A DNA stretch of 64,000 bases from NCBI GenBank assembly GCA_025351355.1, contig JANXWC010000139.1, positions 1 to 64,000 on the forward strand. Direction: 5' to 3'. The DNA is from Hyphomicrobiaceae bacterium (lineage in GTDB: Bacteria; Pseudomonadota; Alphaproteobacteria; Rhizobiales; Hyphomicrobiaceae). Of the stretch, positions 1 through 50,174 are shown one piece after another. How positions within the stretch are numbered: the stretch's first letter is position 1; each line of letters starts with the position of its first letter. The notes beneath the pieces were generated by a model, which was not told the DNA's origin, did not search any database, and saw nothing but the letters and a program-made list of their open reading frames with translations. The position numbers were made by a program, and so were the translations under genes.

Positions 1-272
1 CGTACCAGGCCTCGAACAGTTCGGCTTTGGTGGTGGTAGCTGTCGGCGCGGCGATGAGGCGGAGCAACGGGTGGTCGTCGAGTTCGTGCACGCCATCGTA
101 GAGACAGAGCGGCACGGAGGCGGCGGCTTCGGCGATCATGCGCACGCAGCGATAGACGACGGCGTTCTGCATGTAACCTTCGCGGGCGAAGGCTGAGTAG
201 TCGCGCGGCGCCCAGGTGGCGCCGGACACGGCGTCGAACGAGAACCACGGCGAGACGGGAAAGGCGGCGGCA
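1..272 (-). pseudogene. second, 5'-truncated copy of the GTA/HK97-type portal gene (cut by window edge)
   Basis: This stretch encodes the portal segment from about residue 40 to residue 130, for example WAPRDYSAFAREGYMQNAVV. It aligns without gaps to 2700-2971 of the complete portal gene; by hand I count about 24 mismatches in roughly 270 bases. Homology stops abruptly near 272. The portal frame can be followed upstream of that point to a TAG without any ATG, GTG or TTG, so the first ~39 codons and the native start are missing. The copy continues past the left edge, so I cannot tell whether the rest is intact. It looks like an older portal displaced by insertion of a new portal-toxin-immunity unit. 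It could still be translated from an internal ATG. Confidence 0.8.
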
Positions 273-278
273 GATAAA

Positions 279-617
279 CTATCTTGTGATCGAACCCTGA
301 ACCACCTCGAATAAATCGAGCGATGCTACTTTTTCCAATAGCCTGTCAAGGTTGTCCGAACTATAACAAGTGCATGATAAAACCCAAGTATAACTACTGC
401 TTGGAATACACCAACGATAACCATTGCCATCATCAAAATGGTTTAACCGGAGACTGAACGAATAGCCCCCAACAGAGGCGTCGCAATGGTCGCCGCCAAA
501 AAAAGTTCCGTTAGAACAACGATATTTAACGCCTGAAAATTCTTCACATTGCTTCAGTGCAATTTCCATGTCTTTCGCTTTTATTCCAATGAAGATATGC
601 GGTACTGGTTTTATCAT
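279..617 (-). CDS. small protein of unknown function, candidate immunity protein
   Basis: An open frame of 112 codons starts at the ATG that gives MIKPVPHIFIGIKAKD. The frame stays open upstream to 785, but that part reads like non-coding sequence, so the shorter start is preferred. The product appears soluble, mixed alpha/beta, with several Cys and aromatic residues. The stop codon lies 7 bases before portal homology resumes, so the gene sits exactly at a recombination junction. The DNA is clearly richer in A/T than the neighbouring terminase and portal genes. Position after a toxin-like domain suggests an immunity gene, but I do not recognise the family. Confidence 0.5.
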   Translation of the reverse strand: MIKPVPHIFIGIKAKDMEIALKQCEEFSGVKYRCSNGTFFGGDHCDASVGGYSFSLRLNHFDDGNGYRWCIPSSSYTWVLSCTCYSSDNLDRLLEKVASLDLFEVVQGSITR

Positions 618-792
618 TTGCGTGTTACCAGCGGATAGCCGGCTCCTCTTTTTTTGCCGGCGAGGCACGGACGTAAATCCGCGAAATGCGGCCATGCAAT
701 TGTAATAACTACGGAAGCTTGCCCATCGCATCCAACAAATTCGTGAATAATATTTCAGCGCCGGACTGAGTTCCACCGCGTTCACTATTGAG

Positions 793-1143
793 TTAAACGT
801 AAATTTTATAACGATTCGGATAAACAGGATTTGTCACAAGGATTTTGTACTTATCTGACAAAAGATCAAATGAACCCCACTGCTCGATCGGATGGATTGT
901 CCTGAAACTGAAGCTCATGCCTTCTTGATGAGCAATATTGCGAAGCAACTCCGCAACACGCGCCATTGTTGTAAAATTAATGCGCGCTTCACCGACCTGA
1001 CTCGCCGTCAAGACGTTTGACCAACCCGAAGTATTCGCTTTCTGGTACATTTCTTTTCCTTTCATGCCTGCAATGGCTATCATTACGGCCACTCCAGAGG
1101 CTACACCAACAGTTTTCCATATTTCTTTTCCACTATTTAGCAT
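793..1143 (-). CDS. small single-TM protein, candidate immunity protein for the portal-linked toxin domain
   Basis: The product has 116 residues. One hydrophobic segment lies at residues ~10-28 (VGVASGVAVMIAIAG), followed by a soluble domain. The start codon overlaps the end of the toxin-like frame by 11 bases, the usual toxin-to-immunity arrangement in polymorphic toxin loci. Codon and base usage are more A/T-rich than in the flanking portal gene, which points to acquisition. I recognise no family. An alternative is that it is a further segment of a decayed toxin, although the clean ATG and the overlap argue against that. Confidence 0.55.
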   Translation of the reverse strand: MLNSGKEIWKTVGVASGVAVMIAIAGMKGKEMYQKANTSGWSNVLTASQVGEARINFTTMARVAELLRNIAHQEGMSFSFRTIHPIEQWGSFDLLSDKYKILVTNPVYPNRYKIYV

Positions 1144-1516
1144 GCCGTTGCCTTATGTCGCTTCTCATTTGCTGGTCGAGAAAATCGAATATTTTCGGTC
1201 CCTGCCACTCGTTTAGCATATTAAACCCGGGAATTTTATTATTTCCATACCCATATGTCGTTACTGACCAGGAGCCATCAGAACCCTGCTCGGCTCTACG
1301 CACGACTACGCCATCGTACAAAGCATGCAATGGTTCTGTCTGATTAACTATAGTCAATCCGTTGTCCAAAATAGTCGTTACTACGTACCCACCTGGCGCT
1401 AACGGCTCTCCGAGCAGTGTCGCTCTTGGGTCGCGCACGAACGTTCGGTCTCCATCAATTACAGGATTGGCAGGATCTCGGCCAGGCACGCTGTGGCGCA
1501 ACATTGAGTCTGCCAT
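1133..1516 (-). CDS. toxin-like C-terminal domain, separated from the portal GRWT tail by an apparent frameshift
   Basis: A 127-codon frame encodes a compact domain with the segments PGGYVVTTILDNGLTIVNQT and LYDGVVVRRAEQGSDGSW. From memory it resembles uncharacterised C-terminal domains that follow GRWT linkers in phage-related proteins of alphaproteobacteria. The open frame extends upstream without a start almost to the portal stop at 1570-1572. Restoring one G after the CAG codon before that stop would join the portal tail (..DKFGWHQ) directly to this frame (VGTGPTTVCTAEQNC..). The domain therefore probably evolved as the C-terminal tip of the portal fusion. It is now broken or re-initiated internally. 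Its biochemical activity is unknown. Confidence 0.55.
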   Translation of the reverse strand: MADSMLRHSVPGRDPANPVIDGDRTFVRDPRATLLGEPLAPGGYVVTTILDNGLTIVNQTEPLHALYDGVVVRRAEQGSDGSWSVTTYGYGNNKIPGFNMLNEWQGPKIFDFLDQQMRSDIRQRHAK

Positions 1517-1569
1517 ATCTTGCGAACTGCAGTTTTGCTCTGCTGTGCAGACGGTGGTTGGGCCGGTTC

Positions 1570-3081
1570 CTACTGATGCCAGCCGAATTTATCGGGACTG
1601 TACCGATCCGCAATTTGCTGTGGTTTTTCGCTGTTGTCGCCGATTGGCGGGGTTTGTTCGGCTACCGGATCGAAGCTATCAGACGGGGTGTCAGTGTTGT
1701 CACCGAGTGAGCCGTCGGCGGTCCCGCCATCGCTGCTGCCGTTGGCTCCGGTGTTGCTGCCTCCGCCATCGCCCGGCTTGGTCCAGCGGCCGCCGCCGGG
1801 TTGGCCGGGTGGCTTGCGGATCTGGCCGGGGTTGAATTTCTGCTCAGCGGGTTTGGGGCCGTAGCCGACGGCGGCGCGTTTTTCGTCGTCGGTGAGGAAG
1901 GTGGATTTTTCGAGGCGGGCCCAGAGGGCGTCTTGTTCGGTGGAGAGTGCGGGGATGTCGTCGAGATCGGGTTGCAGCGAGACGTTGGACAGGCCATACG
2001 CCGGCGCCAACCACTCTCCCAGCGCCGCGGTGGTGCGTTGCACCAGGGGCAGAACGGTCTGGCGCCAGAAGGTGCGGTTGGCTTCCTGGTAGTTGGAAAA
2101 CGTGTTGTCGCCGGGGATGCCGAGCAGCATCGGTGGTACGCCGAGAGCGAGGGCGATCTCGCGCGCGGCGCCATGCTTGGCTTCGATGAAGTCGAGATCC
2201 TTCGGCGTCATCGACATGGTCTTCCAGTCGAGACCGCCTTCGAGGAGAAGCGGGCGTCCGGCGTTCGCCGCGCCCTGGAAGCCGATTTCGAGTTCCTGCT
2301 TGAGGCGATTGTATTGCTCTGTTGTCAGATTGCCGTCGCGGGAGGCGTAGACGAGCGCGCCGGAGGGTCGCGCCGAATTATCCAGTAGCGCCTTGTTCCA
2401 GCGCGAGGCGGCGTTGTGGATGTCGATGGCTGTCGCGGCGGCTTCGATGGGGCTGAGGCCGTAGTGATCGTTGAGCGGGTGGAACAGCTTCTGGTGCAGC
2501 ACTTTCCGCACGTTGGGCACGGCTTCGCCGTCGAGGCGGACAGGCGCGGTGCCGTCGACGGAATAGTCGTAGGCCTCGGCATAACCGTCTTCGCCGGGCA
2601 CGATCTGGATGCGGTCGGGCCTGAGAATATGCAGCTCGCGCGGCTCGCCGCCGAGGGCTGCGACTTCGAGATACGAATTGCCGGACACCAGCAGGAAGCC
2701 GTACCAGGCCTCGAACAGTTCGGCTTTTGTCGACGTGGCCGTGGGCGCGGCGATGAGCCGGAGGAGCGGGTGATCGTCGAGTTCGTGCGCGCCGTCGTAG
2801 AGGCACAGTGGCACGGAGGCGGCGGCCTCGGCGATCATGCGCACGCAGCGATAGACGACGGCGTTCTGCATGTAGCCCTCGCGGGCGAAGGCGGTGTAGT
2901 CGCGCGGCGCCCAGGTGGCGCCGGAGACGGCGTCGAAGGAGAACCACGGCGAGACGGGGAAGGCGGCGGCGGTTTTGGTAGCGGGTGGCTGTGGTCGCGT
3001 GCGGGCGGCCTGGGCCGCACGCAGAATGCGATCGGCCACGCCGGCGATGAAGCCGCGAGGGACAAGATTGAGCTGGGGCAT
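1570..3081 (-). CDS. GTA/HK97-family portal protein with C-terminal GRWT linker
   Basis: The first ~395 residues form an HK97/GTA-type portal (RcGTA g3-like), the dodecameric ring through which DNA is packaged. Typical blocks are MQNAVVYRCVRMIAEAAASV, the LLVSGNSYLE segment, and a conserved C-terminal block that contains LGVPPMLLGIPGDNTFSNY. After the portal core comes a tail not needed for a portal: a NPGQ..GGGRWT motif (GRWT at ~431-434), a Gly/Ser/Asp-rich linker and a PPIGDNSEKPQ block, ending in DKFGWHQ. The same linker occurs in the deaminase protein upstream, so the tail is a docking or fusion linker for a toxin tip. The tip itself (1133-1516) is now in another frame. Whether the hybrid assembles into particles is unknown. 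Confidence 0.88.
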   Translation of the reverse strand: MPQLNLVPRGFIAGVADRILRAAQAARTRPQPPATKTAAAFPVSPWFSFDAVSGATWAPRDYTAFAREGYMQNAVVYRCVRMIAEAAASVPLCLYDGAHELDDHPLLRLIAAPTATSTKAELFEAWYGFLLVSGNSYLEVAALGGEPRELHILRPDRIQIVPGEDGYAEAYDYSVDGTAPVRLDGEAVPNVRKVLHQKLFHPLNDHYGLSPIEAAATAIDIHNAASRWNKALLDNSARPSGALVYASRDGNLTTEQYNRLKQELEIGFQGAANAGRPLLLEGGLDWKTMSMTPKDLDFIEAKHGAAREIALALGVPPMLLGIPGDNTFSNYQEANRTFWRQTVLPLVQRTTAALGEWLAPAYGLSNVSLQPDLDDIPALSTEQDALWARLEKSTFLTDDEKRAAVGYGPKPAEQKFNPGQIRKPPGQPGGGRWTKPGDGGGSNTGANGSSDGGTADGSLGDNTDTPSDSFDPVAEQTPPIGDNSEKPQQIADRYSPDKFGWHQ

Positions 3082-3129
3082 GTGGTGGGACTCGTTGAGT
3101 GCGTTCGACGTGGCTGACCCCGAGCGCCA

Positions 3130-3267
3130 TTGTCATCCTGGGCCTTGTGCCCAGGACCCATGGTGCGGCGGGTGCGGAAGGTTCAATTGCGGCTGCGGTT
3201 GCACGACAACTTGGTAGCGCTGCGTGTGCGGAGGGCTGGGTCCTAGGGACAAGCCCTAGGATGACAA
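3130..3267. repeat. paired palindromic intergenic repeat element
   Basis: Two 31-base arms (3130-3160 and 3237-3267) are inverted relative to each other with four mismatches. Each arm is itself a perfect hairpin with an 8-base stem: TCCTGGGC/GCCCAGGA and TCCTAGGG/CCCTAGGA. The stems differ from each other by paired, compensating changes, which suggests selection on structure. The element lies in the 5' region of the portal gene. It resembles the dispersed palindromic repeats common in Rhizobiales genomes. Confidence 0.7.
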
Positions 3268-3310
3268 GTATGGGTGGGGCTGTTTTTGGAGATTAACGCG
3301 TCGTCGCAAA

Positions 3311-3337
3311 GCAAAGCCGCGCCTGGGTGGAGCGCGG
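3311..3337 (-). terminator. degenerate hairpin terminator after the Imm1-like gene
   Basis: On the minus strand the stem CCGCGC/GCGCGG is separated by a 9-base loop and followed by a broken T-run (TTTGCTTTG). It is the weaker copy of the terminator at 5048-5079 and occupies the same position relative to an Imm1 3' end. Confidence 0.5.
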
Positions 3338-3367
3338 TGTGGGGCAGGCGCGGCGATGCTGGACGCG

Positions 3368-3841
3368 TCAGGGATCGGGGAAGGTGTTGGGTGGCAGGTC
3401 TGCGTTGCGGACCCACTCAATGGATTCGGGAAGTTGGCCCTCGGATTCCATGAATTCTTTGACAGCGAGCCAGGCCTTGGGGAAGGGGATGAAGAGACCG
3501 ACGGGGAGCGGTGTGTCGTGCAGCGAAAAGACAAGTTCGCTCAGTCGGCTCATGTCGCCTTTGGAGGTGAAGGCATCGCGAAAGCCAGGTGGGCCGATTT
3601 TGTCGTAGATAATCAGCACGCCGACGTCGGGGATGCCCCAGAGATCCAAATTTATATCCTTTCTACCGCGACCGAAAAGCTTCTCTTCGGTGCCTTCGAG
3701 GCCTTGCACAGAGAATCCCCAGGAGTCGTTTCCACCCCGAACCCATTGCGAACCGTTCGGCGCGAGAAAATGCGGTTCAAGCTGTGCGAGACTTGGCCAG
3801 AACTGACCTCTGAATCCGTGAAAATACACGTACTTGTTCAT
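3368..3841 (-). CDS. Imm1-like immunity protein paired with the deaminase-like toxin
   Basis: The protein has 157 residues and starts four bases inside the end of the upstream toxin gene (ATGA-type overlap), so the two are translationally coupled. The C-terminal half shows features I associate with the Imm1 family, known partners of deaminase toxins: an acidic GVLIIYDKIG region and a closing block FPKAWLAVKEFMESEGQLP followed by an IEW. It has no signal peptide or membrane segment, so it should act in the cytoplasm by binding the toxin. The last ~30 bases and the downstream hairpin are duplicated at 5057-5140. Family assignment is from recalled motifs only. Confidence 0.65.
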   Translation of the reverse strand: MNKYVYFHGFRGQFWPSLAQLEPHFLAPNGSQWVRGGNDSWGFSVQGLEGTEEKLFGRGRKDINLDLWGIPDVGVLIIYDKIGPPGFRDAFTSKGDMSRLSELVFSLHDTPLPVGLFIPFPKAWLAVKEFMESEGQLPESIEWVRNADLPPNTFPDP

Positions 3842-4902
3842 TCTGCAATCCTACTCCCAGCGGCCGTTACGTAGCGTGACCGTTTGCCGTAGATATCTGT
3901 GAAGCGAATAGTGGGATATCCAAGTTCGCGGGAGATCAGTGGCAATACTTTATCACAACTTCGGCACATTTCCCGATCGACATAAATGTCGATAACCCTT
4001 CCGCCCAAACTTCCGTCGTTCACTTTGGCTGCGCGCAATAATGCGGTCGCCTCAGCATGGTAGATGGCGTCGTTGGGTTTGTAGCCCGTATTGTCCCAAC
4101 GCATAACGTCGGGATCGGCGATAATAAGATTGTCGCGCATGGCGTTCGCGGCAGCGCGATCTTCATTCGTATAGCCTGGAGCCCGCGAATTCACTCCGAT
4201 GATTATTCGGGTATCGTTGTCGATCGTCCCAACCGCAATGGTGTCTTTGCCAATTGGAACGTCGAAGTTGTTGCGATAGGCATCCACAGCAAAGGGTGCC
4301 TGTGGCATCGAAAAGCGTGACGGTAGATCACGCCCGAGAGTTGGGCCGCCATTGCTGCCGATACCGGAGCGGGCGATTTCGGCGAGACGGGCATTGGCGG
4401 CTTCGGTCATGGCTTCTTGATGCGCGATCTGACCTTCAATGCTGTCGGTGAAGCTGGCCGGGCCGCGCCAGGTGGGATCCGACTCCATTACGCGACTGAC
4501 GGCCTGTTGAGCTTGGCCGGTGGCGATGGCAAGACGGGCTTCTTGCGCGGGCGTGCCGGTGGGGCCGACTCGTCGACGGGAGACATCCTGGGGCTGCTCG
4601 CTGGCGTCGCCGATCGACGGTGTTCGCGGTGGGTCTTCGGTTGCAGCTGTCGGATCTGAGAGTGATGCGCTGCTGTCATCGGCGATATCTGTATCTGCGC
4701 TGCCAGCTGGTTGGTCGCTATTTCCAATGCCTCCCGGTTTCGTCCAGCGACCACCGCCAGTTTCGCCGGATGGACGGCGAAGCTGGCCAGGATTGAAAAG
4801 CTTTCGCGACACGTCGATGAGGATCTGCAGGGCGCGGATGACATGCAGGCCGGCGAGGTGCGACTTGGCGGCCAGCAGTGCGGTCTGGTGATCGATTGGC
4901 AT
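3838..4902 (-). CDS. polymorphic toxin: leader, GRWT linker, C-terminal deaminase-like domain
   Basis: The start is placed at the ATG giving MPIDHQTALL because the paralogue at 6323 begins at the same point; an in-frame ATG lies 13 codons upstream. Residues 1-36 form a leader shared with that paralogue. Residues 36-54 carry the NPGQ..GGGRWT linker, followed by a low-complexity acidic stretch and an IGDASEQPQ block like that of the portal tail. The C-terminal ~140 residues look like a nucleotide/nucleic-acid deaminase fold of the bacterial toxin type, with HAE at ~282-284 and CRSC at ~313-316 as zinc-binding and catalytic motifs. An Imm1-like gene follows with a 4-base overlap. Substrate (DNA, RNA or free base) cannot be read from the sequence. 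This is the only toxin frame of the array that is fully intact. Confidence 0.72.
   Translation of the reverse strand: MPIDHQTALLAAKSHLAGLHVIRALQILIDVSRKLFNPGQLRRPSGETGGGRWTKPGGIGNSDQPAGSADTDIADDSSASLSDPTAATEDPPRTPSIGDASEQPQDVSRRRVGPTGTPAQEARLAIATGQAQQAVSRVMESDPTWRGPASFTDSIEGQIAHQEAMTEAANARLAEIARSGIGSNGGPTLGRDLPSRFSMPQAPFAVDAYRNNFDVPIGKDTIAVGTIDNDTRIIIGVNSRAPGYTNEDRAAANAMRDNLIIADPDVMRWDNTGYKPNDAIYHAEATALLRAAKVNDGSLGGRVIDIYVDREMCRSCDKVLPLISRELGYPTIRFTDIYGKRSRYVTAAGSRIAE
4820..4902 (-). repeat. toxin leader repeat, copy A
   Basis: These bases encode the leader of the deaminase-like toxin. They match 6241-6323 with about six mismatches over 82 bases. The copies diverge sharply after the linker, so the leader DNA acts as a homologous anchor for swapping the variable tips. 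Confidence 0.75.
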
Positions 4903-5011
4903 GGTGGACGATCTGGCTGGCGTGAGGTCGCTGTTCTGCATATTTCAAAAGGGCGCGGAGCGATCTGGCGGTTGGAGATTGGAGCTGCCCCTCATCCGTC
5001 ACTTCGTGACA

Positions 5012-5046
5012 CCTTCTCCCCGTCGCGAAGAGCAACGGGGAGAAGG
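5012..5046. repeat. TTCTCCCC-type palindromic repeat
   Basis: A 12-base stem (CCTTCTCCCCGT/ACGGGGAGAAGG) has an 11-base loop. Related palindromes lie at 6399-6433 and 61124-61147, so this is a dispersed intergenic repeat. A small GTCAC/GTGAC hairpin abuts it on the left. Confidence 0.65.
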
Positions 5047-5047
5047 G

Positions 5048-5079
5048 AAAAAAGCACCGCGCCTGGGTGGGGCGCGGTG
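5048..5079 (-). terminator. strong rho-independent terminator
   Basis: On the minus strand the perfect 9-base stem CACCGCGCC/GGCGCGGTG with a 7-base loop is followed by CTTTTTT. It ends the cassette with the membrane protein at 5142-5552. It is homologous to the weaker hairpin at 3311-3337. Confidence 0.8.
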
Positions 5080-5107
5080 TGGGGCAGGGGCGGCGATGCG
5101 GGAGATG

Positions 5108-5140
5108 TCAGGGACCGGGGAAGGTGTTGGGGGGCGGGTC
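5108..5140 (-). pseudogene. remnant 3' end of an Imm1-like gene
   Basis: The last ten codons of the Imm1-like gene (..PPNTFPDP stop at 3368) recur here as PPPNTFPGP plus a stop. The downstream spacer and terminator are also shared: 5057-5140 aligns with 3317-3400 over 84 bases. No upstream Imm1 coding sequence remains, because the unrelated membrane-protein gene ends two bases before. This is a scar showing that a deaminase/Imm1-type cassette once occupied this place. Confidence 0.7.
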
Positions 5141-5141
5141 A

Positions 5142-5552
5142 TCACGTCGGAGAAGTAACAAGCATGTAATGAGAGATGCGATCATGAAAGATATCAAAAT
5201 CATATTCCAGGACTCGAATACGAGTTGCGATGTCACCACAATTGAAAATCCAGACAAGATCGTATAAAAAAATATGCGGCGCCAGGGAATATAAGCTTAA
5301 AGGAAGACAAAGGGCCATCGCACACAAAGCAGCAATGACCGATGCGCGACTAGCACCGAATGTCAACAATGCCGAGCCGATATAAAAAAAACCTGCTAAT
5401 TCCTGTGCTAGAATAAACGCTCCAGTCAATGTCCCGCCTGCGAGCTCGGTTCCCCGGGTATCAAGCTGGTAGACAGCTATTATTGCGGCTGCCAACACAC
5501 ACAAGGTCGCATGAACGGCACGCAAACTTCGAAATGGTGCTATAGAAATCAT
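5142..5552 (-). CDS. multi-pass membrane protein, candidate immunity protein of the amidase-like cassette
   Basis: The product has 136 residues with about four predicted membrane helices (roughly residues 12-30, 44-66, 70-88 and 90-106) and a short hydrophilic end (..RVLEYDFDIFHDRISHY). The gene is the only one between the interrupted amidase-like toxin and the cassette terminator, the position expected for its immunity gene. It is clearly A/T-rich for this genome, which suggests horizontal transfer. I do not recognise the family. A membrane immunity protein would fit a toxin acting in the envelope, but that is inference. Confidence 0.55.
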   Translation of the reverse strand: MISIAPFRSLRAVHATLCVLAAAIIAVYQLDTRGTELAGGTLTGAFILAQELAGFFYIGSALLTFGASRASVIAALCAMALCLPLSLYSLAPHIFLYDLVWIFNCGDIATRIRVLEYDFDIFHDRISHYMLVTSPT

Positions 5553-5618
5553 GCTGCATTCCGTTTCGATCGTGTAGCGTCCAGAAAGACGATCGGCGAA
5601 GCACTGACCGCTCGCCGA

Positions 5619-6323
5619 TTAATTTAGCGGGCGGCTCCACCTGCGATAGACCAAGGGACCGTGCCGATCTCCGGGTCGTCCCAAGTTATCCCGCGCCGGG
5701 ACATCAACGATTTGCCCGTGGGCGTCTGCGCCCTCACCGGTTCCGATGAAATTACCATTGCGCCCGACAATCATGACATGCCCTGAGGCGTCAAGTTACT
5801 CGATGCGCTGTGCTACCACGTCGCCCGGTAACGGCGGTTCGGCAGAAGGCAGCACTCTCCAGTTGGGGATCGTATATGTAGGGTCCGCCCATTGACCAGC
5901 GGTGGGCGGGTAATCGTTGATCCATCCGTTCGGAAGTCCCGGATCGGCGGCGGCTCTACTCAAAACCTCATAAACGAATAAATTGCACTTATTTGATGGA
6001 GCAGGAAAATTACCCCGGCTCGCGCTGTCTTGCCAATCGAGCCTTCCCACCTGATTGTCGGCGATAGAGACGATATTCGAGCGGACTTCGTCTTCTGTCA
6101 GCCTGGACTGCGTCCCGGGCTGCCGGGCAACCGGGATAATATCGCTATAGCCGTCATCGGAACCGAGGCCATTGGTCCAACGTCCGTCGTCGTCGCGGGG
6201 CTGGTCGGGATCGAACTCTTTACGCGCGGTAAGGTCGATGAGGATCTGCAGGGCGCAGATGACATGCAGGCCGGCAAGGTGCGACTTGGCGGCCAACAGT
6301 GCGGTTTCGTGATCGGTTGGCAT
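5619..6323 (-). pseudogene. polymorphic toxin with amidase-like (NlpC/P60- or CHAP-type) domain, interrupted by TAA
   Basis: The start MPTDHETALL opens the same ~35-residue leader as the deaminase toxin, followed by a compact FDPDQPRDDDGRWT linker (GRWT at 47-50). A Cys/His hydrolase-like domain follows: NKCNLFVYEVL places a likely nucleophile at Cys113, and the PLPGDVVAQ segment precedes the expected His. An ochre codon (5796-5798) replaces codon 176. The same frame then continues for 58 codons with SGHVMIVGRNG, carrying the expected catalytic His at 182, to a TAA at 5619-5621. The truncated 175-residue product would lack that His. I infer a recent loss-of-function mutation. A sequencing error or readthrough is possible. 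Confidence 0.7.
6241..6323 (-). repeat. toxin leader repeat, copy B
   Basis: These bases encode the leader of the amidase-like toxin and pair with the copy at 4820-4902. Similarity also extends in patches upstream of the start codon (GGTTGGAGATTG and CTGCCCCTCA blocks), so the duplicated unit included the 5' untranslated region. Confidence 0.75.
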
Positions 6324-6398
6324 GGAGTGCGATCTGGTTGGCGCGGGACAGGTGCGGGTGGAGCGGTGGTTGGAGATTGCGGCTGCCCCTCACCCTGA

Positions 6399-6433
6399 CC
6401 CTCTCCCCATCGCAAAGGGCGACGGGGAGAGGG
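6399..6433. repeat. CCTCTCCCC-type palindrome after the terminase gene
   Basis: The 10-base stem CCCTCTCCCC/GGGGAGAGGG with a 15-base loop starts 4 bases after the terminase stop. It belongs to the same dispersed palindrome group as 5012-5046. It could slow or stop transcription between the packaging genes and the toxin cassettes, but there is no T-run. Confidence 0.6.
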
Positions 6434-6436
6434 AAG

Positions 6437-7852
6437 CTACAGGCGGCGGAGGGTGGGGATATTGTGCCTGACCAGCATGAGGTCGGTGAGGGCCCAGACG
6501 AGGGCGTCGAGGCTGTCGGGGCTTTTGCCTTCGCTGAGACCGTCGGTGGCGAAGTCGCACATCTGGCGTTCAAGATCGGGGAAGGTGCCGTAATGGGCGA
6601 CGCGGCCTTCGGCGTAGAGCTGGGCAACGGGTTCGGCGCGCAACCACTTGCCGCGCGTGGCGCGCACTTTCTGCACGGGGATGTTCGGATCGACCTGGTG
6701 GATGACGGCGACGACGAGATCGCCACCCTGGTTGACCTCGGCGACGAGGCGGTCAGCTTCGAAATCGTGATAGGCCTGCACAGCAGCGCGGGCCCACGTG
6801 TCGGGCGTGCGGCCCTGGATGGTGCGGTCGGCGAGGATGATGGCGCGCCCGTCGATGGCAATGCCGGCGACGACGATGCCGCAACTGTCGGAGCCGGCGT
6901 TGGCTGTCACAGGTGGATCGATCGCGACGACGATGCGGGTCATTTCCGGGCGGTTGTCAGGCTGCTCGGCGCGCGGGCGTCGGTCGATGTTGGTCGCGCA
7001 GAGAGACGCTTCGTGTGGCTGATGACTTGTCGATGGGTGGATGCGGTTCTGCTCGATCCAGCTGCGTTTCCACAGACCATACATGCGTTCTTCGACGACT
7101 TCGCCGTCGAGTTCCTGGCGACCCATGGGCGTGCCGGCGTAGCGCTTGTGCATGTCGGCGATGAAGGCTGGCGCCAGATTTCGCGCATTGTCGGAGGTGC
7201 GCGAGTGCGTGACGATCAACTGCGGATCTTTCATGAGACGCTTGATGAACTTGGTGCCGCGCGGGGTGGTAGTGATGCAGACCTGCGGACACGCGCCGAG
7301 GCGCATGGTGAATTGCAGATTATCCCAGGCCCGCTCGGGGACGCGCCACTTGGCCAACTCGTCGCACCAGGCGGTATCAAACTGGGGACCGCGCAGGTTC
7401 TCGTATTCGTCGGCGGCGAACATCTGCGCAATGGTGCCGTTGGGCCAAGTGAGCTGGTTGCGAGAAATCTCGTAGACGGGTCGTTCGTGCGGGGCATGAA
7501 CGGACATGAGGCCGGAGACGCCCTCAATCATGACGTCGCGGACTTCGCCGATACTGCGGCCGACGAGGGCGATGCGATGGGCGCGGTGCTCGGTCAGTTG
7601 CGGCACACCGAGCGCGCGGGCGCGAACCCATTCTGCACCGGCGCGCGTTTTGCCGGAGCCCCGGCCACCGAGAATGAGCCAGGTGCGCCATGGCTGACCG
7701 TCTGCGAGGGCGACGGGCGGCAATTGATCGTCGCGCGCCCAGATCATCCAATCATAGGCAAACTCAATCAGCTTGGCCGGCTCAATCGCCTGCAGCAGTT
7801 CTTTTCGCGCCGCTCTCGGCAACGTCGATAAAGCGCTGAAGACGCGCTGCAA
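6437..7852 (-). CDS. large terminase subunit (GTA/HK97-type packaging ATPase-nuclease)
   Basis: This is the DNA-packaging motor of a phage-like particle. The ATPase part has WLILGGRGSGKTRAGAEWVR (Walker A) near the N-terminus and a conserved WARDDQLPP segment just before it, as in RcGTA g2. The C-terminal half holds the RNase H-like nuclease with IVVAIDPPVTANAGSDSCGI and a second acidic cluster further on. The frame stays open to 7960, but that start would overlap the upstream gene by 179 bases and add a Pro-rich stretch absent from the family. I therefore place the start at a TTG at 7852 (another TTG at 7822). The frame is otherwise intact. Confidence 0.88.
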   Translation of the reverse strand: MQRVFSALSTLPRAARKELLQAIEPAKLIEFAYDWMIWARDDQLPPVALADGQPWRTWLILGGRGSGKTRAGAEWVRARALGVPQLTEHRAHRIALVGRSIGEVRDVMIEGVSGLMSVHAPHERPVYEISRNQLTWPNGTIAQMFAADEYENLRGPQFDTAWCDELAKWRVPERAWDNLQFTMRLGACPQVCITTTPRGTKFIKRLMKDPQLIVTHSRTSDNARNLAPAFIADMHKRYAGTPMGRQELDGEVVEERMYGLWKRSWIEQNRIHPSTSHQPHEASLCATNIDRRPRAEQPDNRPEMTRIVVAIDPPVTANAGSDSCGIVVAGIAIDGRAIILADRTIQGRTPDTWARAAVQAYHDFEADRLVAEVNQGGDLVVAVIHQVDPNIPVQKVRATRGKWLRAEPVAQLYAEGRVAHYGTFPDLERQMCDFATDGLSEGKSPDSLDALVWALTDLMLVRHNIPTLRRL

Positions 7853-8438
7853 GTTCGCTGCGGAGGCGGTCCGCCTCGTCGGCAAGCGCCGTGGAGGCGA
7901 GGCTGGCGGATTTGGCGGCGGCACCGCTGATCCGTCTGCCGTTGGGATGGGCATGATCATATTCCGTCACTTGCTCGAGGTTCTTGATGAGGCCGCCGAT
8001 GCTGCGCGTGTCACGCTCGAAGTCGGCGGCGGTTGAAGCGGCGCGCTTCGTGGTCTTGGTGTCGTCCAGACCGGCCATCTCGCGGGCGAAACGGCGTTCG
8101 AGCAGGGTCAGCTTGGTTTCAATGGCGTTAGTGAGACGCTCGACGATGGCACGGCGTTGGGCGATCGGCGTCGGTCTGGTTTTGCGCGCTGGTGGAACAG
8201 GAGGTGTTGGCTCAACAGCCGATGGCAGCGCTGCAAATGGAACCGCGGAGGTTGATTTTGCGGCAGCTTTTTGCTGAGCCCTCTCGACAGCGGAGGGGCG
8301 GCTGACCCATTGGCCTTCGACGCGATGCTTGAGCAGGAAATGCGCTGTTGTTCCGTATTTCTCCAGCAGCTTTGGGATGGACAGCTTGCCGGCTTCGTAG
8401 TCACGGCGGACGTCCTCCCAATCGGGTTCAGCCGACAT
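7782..8438 (-). CDS. small-terminase-like / GTA g1-like DNA-binding protein
   Basis: The product has 218 residues. The N-terminal ~50 residues look like a helix-turn-helix of the type W..VRRDYEAGKLSIPKLLEKYG followed by GQWVSR, typical of proteins encoded before large terminases. A Pro/Ala-rich linker and long charged helices (probable coiled coil, ~95-205) follow, suitable for oligomerisation. AAGGA lies 8 bases before the ATG. The end overlaps the start region of the large terminase, so the two are co-translated. It would recognise DNA for packaging; in GTAs this function is reduced. It is the first gene of the minus-strand unit. Confidence 0.65.
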   Translation of the reverse strand: MSAEPDWEDVRRDYEAGKLSIPKLLEKYGTTAHFLLKHRVEGQWVSRPSAVERAQQKAAAKSTSAVPFAALPSAVEPTPPVPPARKTRPTPIAQRRAIVERLTNAIETKLTLLERRFAREMAGLDDTKTTKRAASTAADFERDTRSIGGLIKNLEQVTEYDHAHPNGRRISGAAAKSASLASTALADEADRLRSELAARLQRFIDVAESGAKRTAAGD

Positions 8439-47923: not shown

Positions 47924-48301
47924 TCAACCGTAGGCGACGCCATTGCGCTCGATCTTGCCGATCATCCGAGCGTTGTCTCGGGCTTCATCGGCTTCAAGTG
48001 CCGCCAACGATTCGCGTGCCAGTTCGTGCGCGGCCATCGCAACGTCCAACTGAGCCTTCAGATCGGCAACTGACACAAGCAACTTATCGCGCCGGAGGGC
48101 TGCGGCCTTGGCAAAGGTTGAATAGGAGAAATGCGCGGCATCTTTCACGCCGGTCCGCTCTTCCTCGGAAACAATCTGGCGCTCAAGATCAGCAGCCATG
48201 TTCTCGAAGTCCCTGATCATGGACCTGAGATCCTCAGCCTTGCGCAATCTCTCAGCCACGTCGAAGCGCTTGGCGCGCAATGCCGAATCTCTGGACTTCA
48301 T
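47924..48301 (-). CDS. fliJ: FliJ-like flagellar export chaperone
   Basis: A 125-residue coiled-coil protein (KSRDSALRAKRFDVAERLRK, then LDVAMAAHELARESLAALEA near the end), matching the general FliJ pattern; it would aid the flagellar type III export ATPase. Identification rests on size, coiled-coil content and position: fliJ next to ctrA is conserved in Rhizobiales. The usual fliI gene is not beside it. Start at 48301 after a short open upstream frame. Confidence 0.7.
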   Translation of the reverse strand: MKSRDSALRAKRFDVAERLRKAEDLRSMIRDFENMAADLERQIVSEEERTGVKDAAHFSYSTFAKAAALRRDKLLVSVADLKAQLDVAMAAHELARESLAALEADEARDNARMIGKIERNGVAYG

Positions 48302-48901
48302 GACGCGATACCCCTGCAACTCGTTCTGGCAAGTAAAACTAGATCAACTATCGTGCCAATTCCTTCGGCCATCAGCATACCGCCGGCCTTTAGGTAATGA
48401 TGCGTTGCGGACGATCAGCCCGATTGCGCCTCACCTGAGTGTATCATCTGCCATTAATCATTTAAGTTGCGGTAAAGCAACGCTGCATCTTCTAAATAAC
48501 TATCCAGGCCAGATCTGCCGAATTTGCGACAATTGACACTTCCCCGCCGAGTCGCAAATCAGTTAACGATGTCACACGACTTCGGGTGGCGAGCTGGAAA
48601 GTCAGACGTCTGCATACACTCCATGGGCCCAAACCCATGAAGTGCGTGCGTTTTCAGGCTTCGCCTCCAAAGACAGCTCAACAATGTACGGGATTGATTG
48701 GGCGTGCCGTTTTGATACCGGCATGGTCAAAAAAATGTGCCGGAATGGGGAAGATTTTTCAGTCCTTCCGCAAAAGTTAATTAGGGTTTGTTAACTTTTG
48801 ACAGTTAACGTCGTGGAAATAGAGCTCAGTATTCGTTGTGGCGTTCTCTTTGCGAACTAGGGCAAGCGGCCTGTCATCAGGCAGGGGACGAGAGGAAAGA
48901 C
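48302..48901. promoter_or_regulatory. ctrA upstream regulatory region
   Basis: 600 bases between divergent fliJ and ctrA with no gene. It holds a GAGTC (GANTC, CcrM methylation site) at 48549-48553, several TTAAC half-sites clustered near 48783-48810 (one spaced as ATTA-N7-TTAAC, close to the CtrA box), and an 18-base palindrome near 48620-48640. This resembles the multi-input, cell-cycle controlled ctrA promoters known from Caulobacter and rhizobia. Exact promoter positions cannot be assigned. Confidence 0.55.
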
Positions 48902-49600
48902 ATGCGAGTTCTTCTAATTGAAGATGACAGCGCCACAGCGCAAAGCATCGAACTAATGCTCCAATCGGAAGGTTTCAATATCTACACCACCGATCTCGGT
49001 GAAGAGGGTGTAGATCTTGGCAAGCTGTACGATTACGATATCATTCTGCTCGATATCAATCTGCCCGATATGAGTGGCTACGAAGTCTTGAAAACACTTC
49101 GGGTCTCCAAGGTTCAGACCCCGATCCTCATCCTTTCCGGATTGATCGGCATCGAGGACAAAGTGCGCGGCCTCGGCTTCGGCGCCGACGATTACATGAC
49201 CAAGCCGTTCCACAAGGACGAACTGGTCGCCCGCATTCATGCCATCGTGCGGCGCTCCAAAGGCCATGCCCAGTCGGTCATCGAAACCGGCGACCTCAAG
49301 GTCAATCTCGACACGAAAACGGTTGAAGTACACGCCCAACGTGTTCATCTGACCGGCAAAGAATACCAGATGCTTGAGCTGCTTTCCTTGCGTAAAGGCA
49401 CGACACTGACCAAGGAAATGTTCCTCAACCACTTATATGGCGGCATGGACGAGCCCGAATTAAAGATCATCGACGTGTTCATCTGCAAATTGCGCAAGAA
49501 GCTGCAAGCTGCAACCGGCGGCAAGCATTACATCGAAACGGTTTGGGGCCGCGGCTATGTGCTGCGTGATCCCGGCGACGAAGGCAATGTGGCGGCCTGA
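48902..49600 (+). CDS. ctrA: cell-cycle response regulator CtrA
   Basis: An OmpR-family regulator, 232 residues, that silences origin firing and activates division, flagellar and pilus genes in alphaproteobacteria; it also controls GTA expression in several species. The receiver has the phosphoacceptor Asp51 (LLDINLPD), the acidic pair IEDD, and the K in [10 protein letters not shown]. The DNA-binding domain reads [20 protein letters not shown] and ends [16 protein letters not shown]. The C-terminal VAA is the expected ClpXP degradation tag (..NVAA). AGAGGAAAGA precedes the ATG. Confidence 0.96.
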
Positions 49601-49631
49601 ACCAACCGACTAAGCTGCATTCGAATTGAAC

Positions 49632-49660
49632 AAGGGGATCTCCAGAAGGTCCCCTTTTTC
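49632..49660 (+). terminator. rho-independent terminator of ctrA
   Basis: A stem AAGGGGA/TCCCCTT around an 11-base loop is followed by a run of five T residues, 31 bases after the ctrA stop. Confidence 0.8.
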
Positions 49661-49814
49661 TTGTACGCCAGTTCACCCTTGCCTCCAAACCCCTCCTTTT
49701 AATCATTCTAATTCAAAAACATAAGCTTTGACAGCGCGCCGTTGTTCTGCAATTTAAAAAGTCACTGCAACCGATGGCAGGGCCTTGAACCCTACAGATT
49801 GGGATGACCTCGAG

Positions 49815-50174
49815 ATGACTTTTTCTGCGATCCTCACCGCGAACCGACCGTGGCATGTTTTGACTATTGCCGCACTGATAACATTTGCCAGTACCAGCGT
49901 TGGTGTGGCGCAAGAAGCCAGCCACACCCTGACTATCCGTGATGGCAAGTTCGAGCCAAGCACGTTAGAGGTCAAGGCAGGCGTTAAATTCAAACTGACA
50001 ATAACCAACGCAACCAAGAAGTCGGCTGAATTTGAAAGCGCCGAACTCAATCGCGAGAAAGTCATCCCCGCAGGCGCGAGTGGTAGTGTTTTCATTGGCC
50101 CGCTGCAACCTGGCAGTTATCCTTTCGTCGATGACTTCAACAAATCGGCGACGGGCCAGATCGTGGCCAAGTAG
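49815..50174 (+). CDS. exported cupredoxin-like protein, EfeO N-domain type
   Basis: From the ATG at 49815 the product has 119 residues: a signal peptide (PWHVLTIAALITFASTSVGVAQ), then a single cupredoxin-like domain (FEPSTLEVKAGVKFKLTITN, AEFESAELNREKVIPAG and the pattern LQPGSYPFVDDF). This equals the first domain of EfeO. It lies 62 bases upstream of an FTR1 permease gene, so it probably delivers iron from the periplasm to the permease. The EfeO M75 domain and EfeB peroxidase are not present here. Confidence 0.8.
   Translation: MTFSAILTANRPWHVLTIAALITFASTSVGVAQEASHTLTIRDGKFEPSTLEVKAGVKFKLTITNATKKSAEFESAELNREKVIPAGASGSVFIGPLQPGSYPFVDDFNKSATGQIVAK

Follow-up and report, generated by a model that had tools for sequence, protein, structure and literature searches.

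Among described systems, the MuF toxins are nearest in concept to the locus considered here: a head-associated protein of temperate phages, encoded near the portal and terminase genes, carries variable C-terminal toxins, and packaging into the phage head has been proposed (PMC3482391, PMC5576092). The Bxa toxins of Bacteroides prophages are likewise polymorphic, with variable tips and, for one toxin, two immunity proteins (PMC11699363). A further point of comparison is the Rhodobacter gene transfer agent (GTA) known as RcGTA, whose portal is built of twelve subunits and has clip, stem, wing and crown domains (PMC7296036). The present locus occupies the first 8,438 positions of a 64,000-nucleotide stretch ("the window": contig JANXWC010000139.1, positions 1 to 64,000) of a Hyphomicrobiaceae bacterium (GCA_025351355.1), and encodes three toxin-like C-terminal domains ("tips") among terminase and portal genes of RcGTA type. 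The source is a draft metagenome-assembled genome (MAG) of 5.25 Mb in 266 contigs; the window is the start of its contig C224, position 1 being the contig end. With a probability of roughly 60%, a head protein of an RcGTA-type GTA serves here as the trafficking part of a polymorphic toxin locus, and the tips would be delivered by the particles. The locus represents, we conclude, a polymorphic toxin system with a phage or GTA head protein as its carrier, conceptually close to the MuF toxins.

The feature shared with MuF toxins is the use of a head protein as carrier of variable tips. The carrier differs: here it is the portal itself, or a short adaptor, joined to the tip by a QPRxPAG..GGQW linker, in an RcGTA-type context and with arrays of displaced cassettes. 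Since no MuF domain (Phage_Mu_F, Phage_min_cap2) gave a Pfam match in the proteins of the window locus at E up to 1, they are not MuF members, though they may work alike. The likeness to RcGTA (PMC7296036) and other Rhodobacter-type GTAs is one of genes: relatives of the window genome have their terminase, portal, prohead protease, capsid and tail genes in one cluster and in the same order. The RcGTA portal, however, stops where the linker begins, without a tip, and most of the sampled GTA portals carry no more than 28 additional residues. With CdiA-CT/CdiI, Rhs and MafB systems the locus and its relatives share toxins (RNAse_A_bac, CdiA_C, MafB19-type deaminase) and immunity families (Imm1, CdiI_2-like), whereas none of the delivery domains of those systems was found: at the N-terminus there is a portal or a short adaptor, not a large CdiA filament with a two-partner secretion partner. 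Bxa has a comparable prophage polymorphic-toxin plan in other hosts. In the open-licence papers searched, neither toxin tips borne by a GTA portal nor any portal- or GTA-linked toxin system is described.

The portal gene of the window (1570..3081; all window genes described below are, like it, on the minus strand) belongs to the GTA type (Phage_portal 3.8e-86; TIGR01537) and ends in a GGGRWT linker at about 1836-1780. Among solved structures the closest is that of the RcGTA portal, Rcc01684 (6TBA; 9.3e-120, query residues 29-409 against 14-392 of 396), which ends near the match of window portal residue 409, where the linker starts. The linker, [FY]xPxQPRxPAGxxxGGQW[TV] (…GGGRWT in the window), is nearly invariant, while the flanks before and after it vary; it joins tips either to a short helical adaptor or to the portal, in the latter case at the point corresponding to the end of the RcGTA portal.

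An intact form of such a joint is found in L055, one of the two closest named relatives of the window genome (L054 and L055, MAGs labelled Hyphomicrobiaceae). In this congener a single open reading frame (ORF) of 649 amino acids scores 291 bits for Phage_portal and 62.7 bits (cut-off 27) for RNAse_A_bac, the family of the CdiA-CT RNase A toxin, and is followed by an ORF of 95 amino acids. An AlphaFold2 model of the fusion is ordered through the portal to about residue 411, has low confidence from 420 to 554 and predicts the tip weakly, a hint, though only that, of a flexible linker. Portal-tip fusions of 654 amino acids, with RNAse_A_bac at 41.6 bits in that of L237, also occur in L227 and L237 within clusters holding GTA genes g4 to g13, nearly all of whose frames are open.

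In G006 (loci L035 and L056) a whole array of such units is present. It starts with terL, a portal-tip ORF of 738 amino acids and a small ORF; four cassettes follow, each of which opens with a piece of the portal 3' end, their tips including RNAse_A_bac and WHH/Colicin-DNase; then come an adaptor-type cassette, a last portal fragment, and g4, g5, g6, g7, g8 and g9. The DNA identity between repeated segments is in many cases 88-98%, and a small ORF next to RNAse_A_bac is CdiI_2-like (24.7 bits, cut-off 26.7). Similar partial arrays are present in G012, G029, G022 and G003; displaced (orphan) toxin cassettes with portal 3' fragments occur at other loci as well. The proposal of the preliminary description, that variable tips use virion genes as their scaffold, is borne out by the complete portal-toxin ORFs of L055, L227 and L237, by the displaced-cassette array and by tips that portals share with other scaffolds, and more strongly in relatives than in the window. 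The same holds for the GTA structural genes expected beside the toxins: they are there in G006, G012, G029, G022, L067, L092 and L078, and missing from that place in the window genome.

Short-adaptor toxins stand between g4 and g5 in L067, L092 (Methyloceanibacter marginalis) and L078 (Bauldia litoralis), and in L065 a deaminase and an Imm1 gene (above cut-off) come directly before the portal. HNH-like linker toxins are followed by a DUF2019 protein at L067:8358-8729 (134 bits) and by a similar one at L092:2943-3317, so that DUF2019 is probably an immunity family. In Bauldia litoralis (L078:12570-14036) a toxin and a gene resembling the L067 DUF2019 partner follow g4 and are themselves followed by a second g4 3'-end fragment, as if the protease gene, too, were used as an insertion scaffold. 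In view of this fragment, the short adaptor might conceivably be homologous to the C-terminus of g4; cleavage of the linker by the prohead protease is another conceivable feature. An immunity gene directly after the toxin is identifiable by family for Imm1 (window, L065), CdiI_2-like and DUF2019 partners, and otherwise by position.

The constancy of the linker and the exchange of what follows it can be followed in larger samples. Of 187 linker proteins from all loci collected, 48 have a portal-like and 112 a short N-terminal part. The tips of the 187 fall into 53 clusters, of which 20 have at least two members, and seven of these 20 are found on both portals and other scaffolds. These counts are not independent, because some loci are related and clustering was by single linkage, and what holds the large clusters together may be a segment that their members share ahead of the tip. 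RNAse_A_bac was recognised in 11 of 61 linker proteins. The seven shared clusters and the portal-RNAse_A_bac ORF correspond to the constant N-terminal trafficking part with exchangeable C-terminal toxins of a polymorphic system. A DNA pattern of the linker matched 97 stretches in IMG/VR, many of which are GTA clusters. From the viral linker ORFs, 29 were picked because their N-terminal part is long: a portal PHROG is matched by 25 of them and Pfam Phage_portal by 20, with one each for Portal_Mu, SPP1_portal and Phage_Mu_F. One of the 29 has a head maturation protease match, and viral contigs L234, L245, L252, L262 and L300 carry the linker in long proteins of other kinds. Several "viral" IMG/VR contigs (L237, L236, L256, L269 and others) are alphaproteobacterial-type GTA clusters, not phages.

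Are the linkers simply scattered through these genomes? In 60 relatives there were 21 linker matches at E up to 1e-8, 15 of them within a few kb of a portal match, the coordinates being compared by hand and several members having gone into building the linker profile. A fresh set was taken from genomes outside the first (60 loci, up to 20 kb each); of 398 genomes of the order, 57 have linker matches. GTA genes accompany 15 of the 60 fresh loci (terL only in one of them), against a chance expectation of about 0.8% per locus by our own estimate (34 kb in 4.2 Mb); minus two loci that were profile members, the figure is 13 of 58 (binomial P about 1e-15). Random scattering, named beforehand as an outcome that would count against the scaffold idea, is thus not what is seen. 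Most short-adaptor linker toxins in the fresh Hyphomicrobiales genomes lie away from GTA genes (L169-L228, for example L183, L184, L186 and L194).

In the window itself the order from 8438 to 1 is terS, terL, toxin unit 1, a small hydrophobic ORF, toxin unit 2, Imm1, the portal with its GGGRWT linker, tip 3, two small ORFs and a portal fragment reaching the contig end. The three tips first read from the letters are all present behind terminase (6323-5796, 4941-3838 and about 1588-1133), and so are their linkers, which proved to be on all three units and not on two; the assignment of the third tip to the portal itself fared less well, its frame being a different one. Each toxin has one or more small genes after it, as had been supposed, with only Imm1 (3841-3368) above its Pfam cut-off. 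The Pfam scan of the window names terminase, portal and Imm1, with the MafB19-type deaminase slightly below cut-off.

The intact middle unit, toxin unit 2 (3838..4941, likely start 4902), consists of an adaptor, a GGGRWT linker and a deaminase tip (MafB19-deam 1.1e-5, slightly under the Pfam cut-off; dCMP_cyt_deam_1 8.9e-5), in which H295-A-E297 and C326-x-x-C329 are invariant in seven homologues. Its Imm1 immunity gene (3368..3841; Pfam Imm1 26.1 bits, cut-off 22.4) follows, and the deaminase-Imm1 pair recurs in G025, at two places, and in L065. Neither the deaminase toxin nor one adaptor, each searched against a known-phage collection, had a match there. The adaptors of units 1 and 2 are 71% identical (DNA 91% over 110 bp).

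Toxin unit 1 (5619..6323) has the short helical adaptor, a DGRWT linker and a tip, its ORF (6323-5796) being broken by an in-frame TAA at codon 176; the read-through frame is open to 234 codons. The tip is 44% identical (2.5e-20) to an unbroken linker protein of genome G195, which aligns across the TAA (query 76-185). Since the read-through has no Pfam family and no convincing solved relative (best E 0.26), its resemblance to an NlpC/P60-type peptidase is a judgement by eye only. The small hydrophobic protein after it (5142..5552), without a match in Pfam, NCBIfam or PHROG, is by position a candidate membrane immunity protein for toxin 1.

Tip 3 (1133..1588) is open from about 1588, with an ATG ORF at 1516-1133, and probably once formed the C-terminus of the portal; its homologue in G086 is an adaptor-linker protein (48%, 2.6e-21). 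Two candidate immunity genes, assigned by position, come after it: 3a (793..1143), which overlaps the end of tip 3, and 3b (279..785, likely start about 617); neither has a family in Pfam, NCBIfam or PHROG.

What had been taken for a second portal copy is only a fragment, of residues ~28-238. Residues 28-127 lie in the window (1..301), and the fragment continues to residue ~238 on contig C85, whose end shares 119 identical bases with that of C224, with a single open frame across the join; it is 91.5% identical in DNA to copy 1 over 599 bp. Beyond it on C85, where capsid genes had been sought, are kdpE, kdpD, kdpC, kdpB and kdpA (identified by reading translations). The remaining GTA genes are elsewhere: C39 carries the prohead protease gene g4 and then a transposase-like gene, and C144, which overlaps C39 by 141 bases, carries g5 to g13; the transposase-like gene thus sits between the prohead protease and capsid genes (L116:6086-8522 and the start of L109). 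A complete GTA at the window locus was ruled out by the kdp genes past the portal fragment and by g4-g13 on other contigs.

If the tips are delivered by particles, the twelve portal copies would hold them within the head, at the crown. The crown of a portal faces the inside of the head. A particle released at lysis would then bring tips as well as DNA to a recipient, the immunity proteins would shield the producer and its kin, and the repeated portal 3' ends could serve as recombination substrate by which new tips from displaced cassettes replace old ones. A fuller version, in which some Hyphomicrobiales make armed GTAs with up to twelve head-packaged tips, one per portal subunit, that enter recipients together with the DNA, so that only kin with matching immunity survive and use it, is offered tentatively, at somewhat under even odds.

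Several points weigh against particle delivery of the tips. Carriage of the tips on particles and their delivery to recipients are themselves inferred. The RcGTA portal channel measures 28 A at its narrowest (PMC7296036), too narrow for easy passage of a folded tip, which would have to be unfolded or set free by a protease. Some three quarters of the fresh linker loci have no GTA gene nearby, and the linker system is therefore wider than GTAs. Most candidate immunity genes are without a family match. An AlphaFold2 model of the deaminase toxin, with one homologue in the alignment, reached a confidence score (pLDDT) of 40 and was not used. In the window genome the GTA is split in two, g1-g3 being on C224 and g4-g13 on C39/C144 with the transposase gene between g4 and g5; and two of the three toxins are broken in this assembly, given the TAA in toxin 1 and a tip 3 out of the portal frame.

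The last two points lead to the alternative that survives best, one with a substantial chance of being right though not the favoured one: that in this genome the locus is a mere remnant, a split and non-productive GTA whose toxin pairs persist by chance. The stop codon in toxin 1, the frame shift between portal and tip 3, the portal fragment beside kdp genes and the transposase gene within the GTA are all as this would have it. But terL, the portal core and the deaminase-Imm1 pair are intact, and the portal core has a ratio of nonsynonymous to synonymous substitution rates (dN/dS) of 0.07 against the congener G002; since the source is a MAG, single frame defects may be assembly errors; and a remnant here would have no bearing on the system in relatives. 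The window locus is probably a partly decayed member of the system, only the deaminase-Imm1 pair being clearly intact and the GTA being in two places.

GTA particles leave the producing cell by its lysis, and the main rival to delivery by particles builds on this: the tips would not be injected but would be soluble bacteriocins freed at GTA lysis, kept inactive by, or co-expressed with, the portal or adaptor. The narrow channel (PMC7296036) would then be no obstacle, and the portal-less short-adaptor forms, a majority at 112 of 187, would fit. However, the linker occurs on several unrelated head proteins (portals of several families, MuF), making the head its likely destination, and soluble tips would need their own entry into target cells, with no receptor-binding domain recognised; soluble release is accordingly rated unlikely. 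Least probable is a module acting in the producer (addiction, or abortive defence against phages), for which the portal would be a sensor or timer. It has in its favour that the toxin lies beside its antidote, as toxin-antitoxin pairs do, but displaced-cassette arrays, a toxin like the RNase A of contact-dependent inhibition, and Imm1 and CdiI_2-like partners are typical of systems aimed at other cells, and a portal fusion would be made late, in a cell that is lysing anyway.

Delivery of tips by particles would bear on the open question of why bacteria retain GTAs, whose makers lyse; whether the benefit of indiscriminate DNA transfer is enough has been asked in a 2024 review (PMC11841831). Portal-fused tips would give a direct, testable benefit in the killing of non-kin, and would connect GTAs with polymorphic toxins; if armed GTAs exist, they would be both a competitive benefit for producers and a form of kin discrimination. 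The conserved linker is in any case a sequence handle for finding such toxins, mostly without a Pfam family, in Alphaproteobacteria and prophages.

The identification of terminase and portal as RcGTA g2/g3 types held, the former by its Terminase_6N (4e-25) and Terminase_6C (1e-20) matches, the latter by its relation to Rcc01684. The terL gene (g2-like, 6437..7960) encodes an intact protein of 507 amino acids, with a dN/dS of 0.15 against the congener G002. It is preceded by terS (g1-like terminase small subunit, 7782..8438; phrog_1206 9.1e-7), which is 29% identical to the Methyloligella GTA terS (1e-10). Far from the locus, at 48000-50000, GC content is locally lower, at 0.52 against about 0.60; a response-regulator gene (48836-49600) adjoins cupredoxin-like and FTR1-like genes there (identified by eye).

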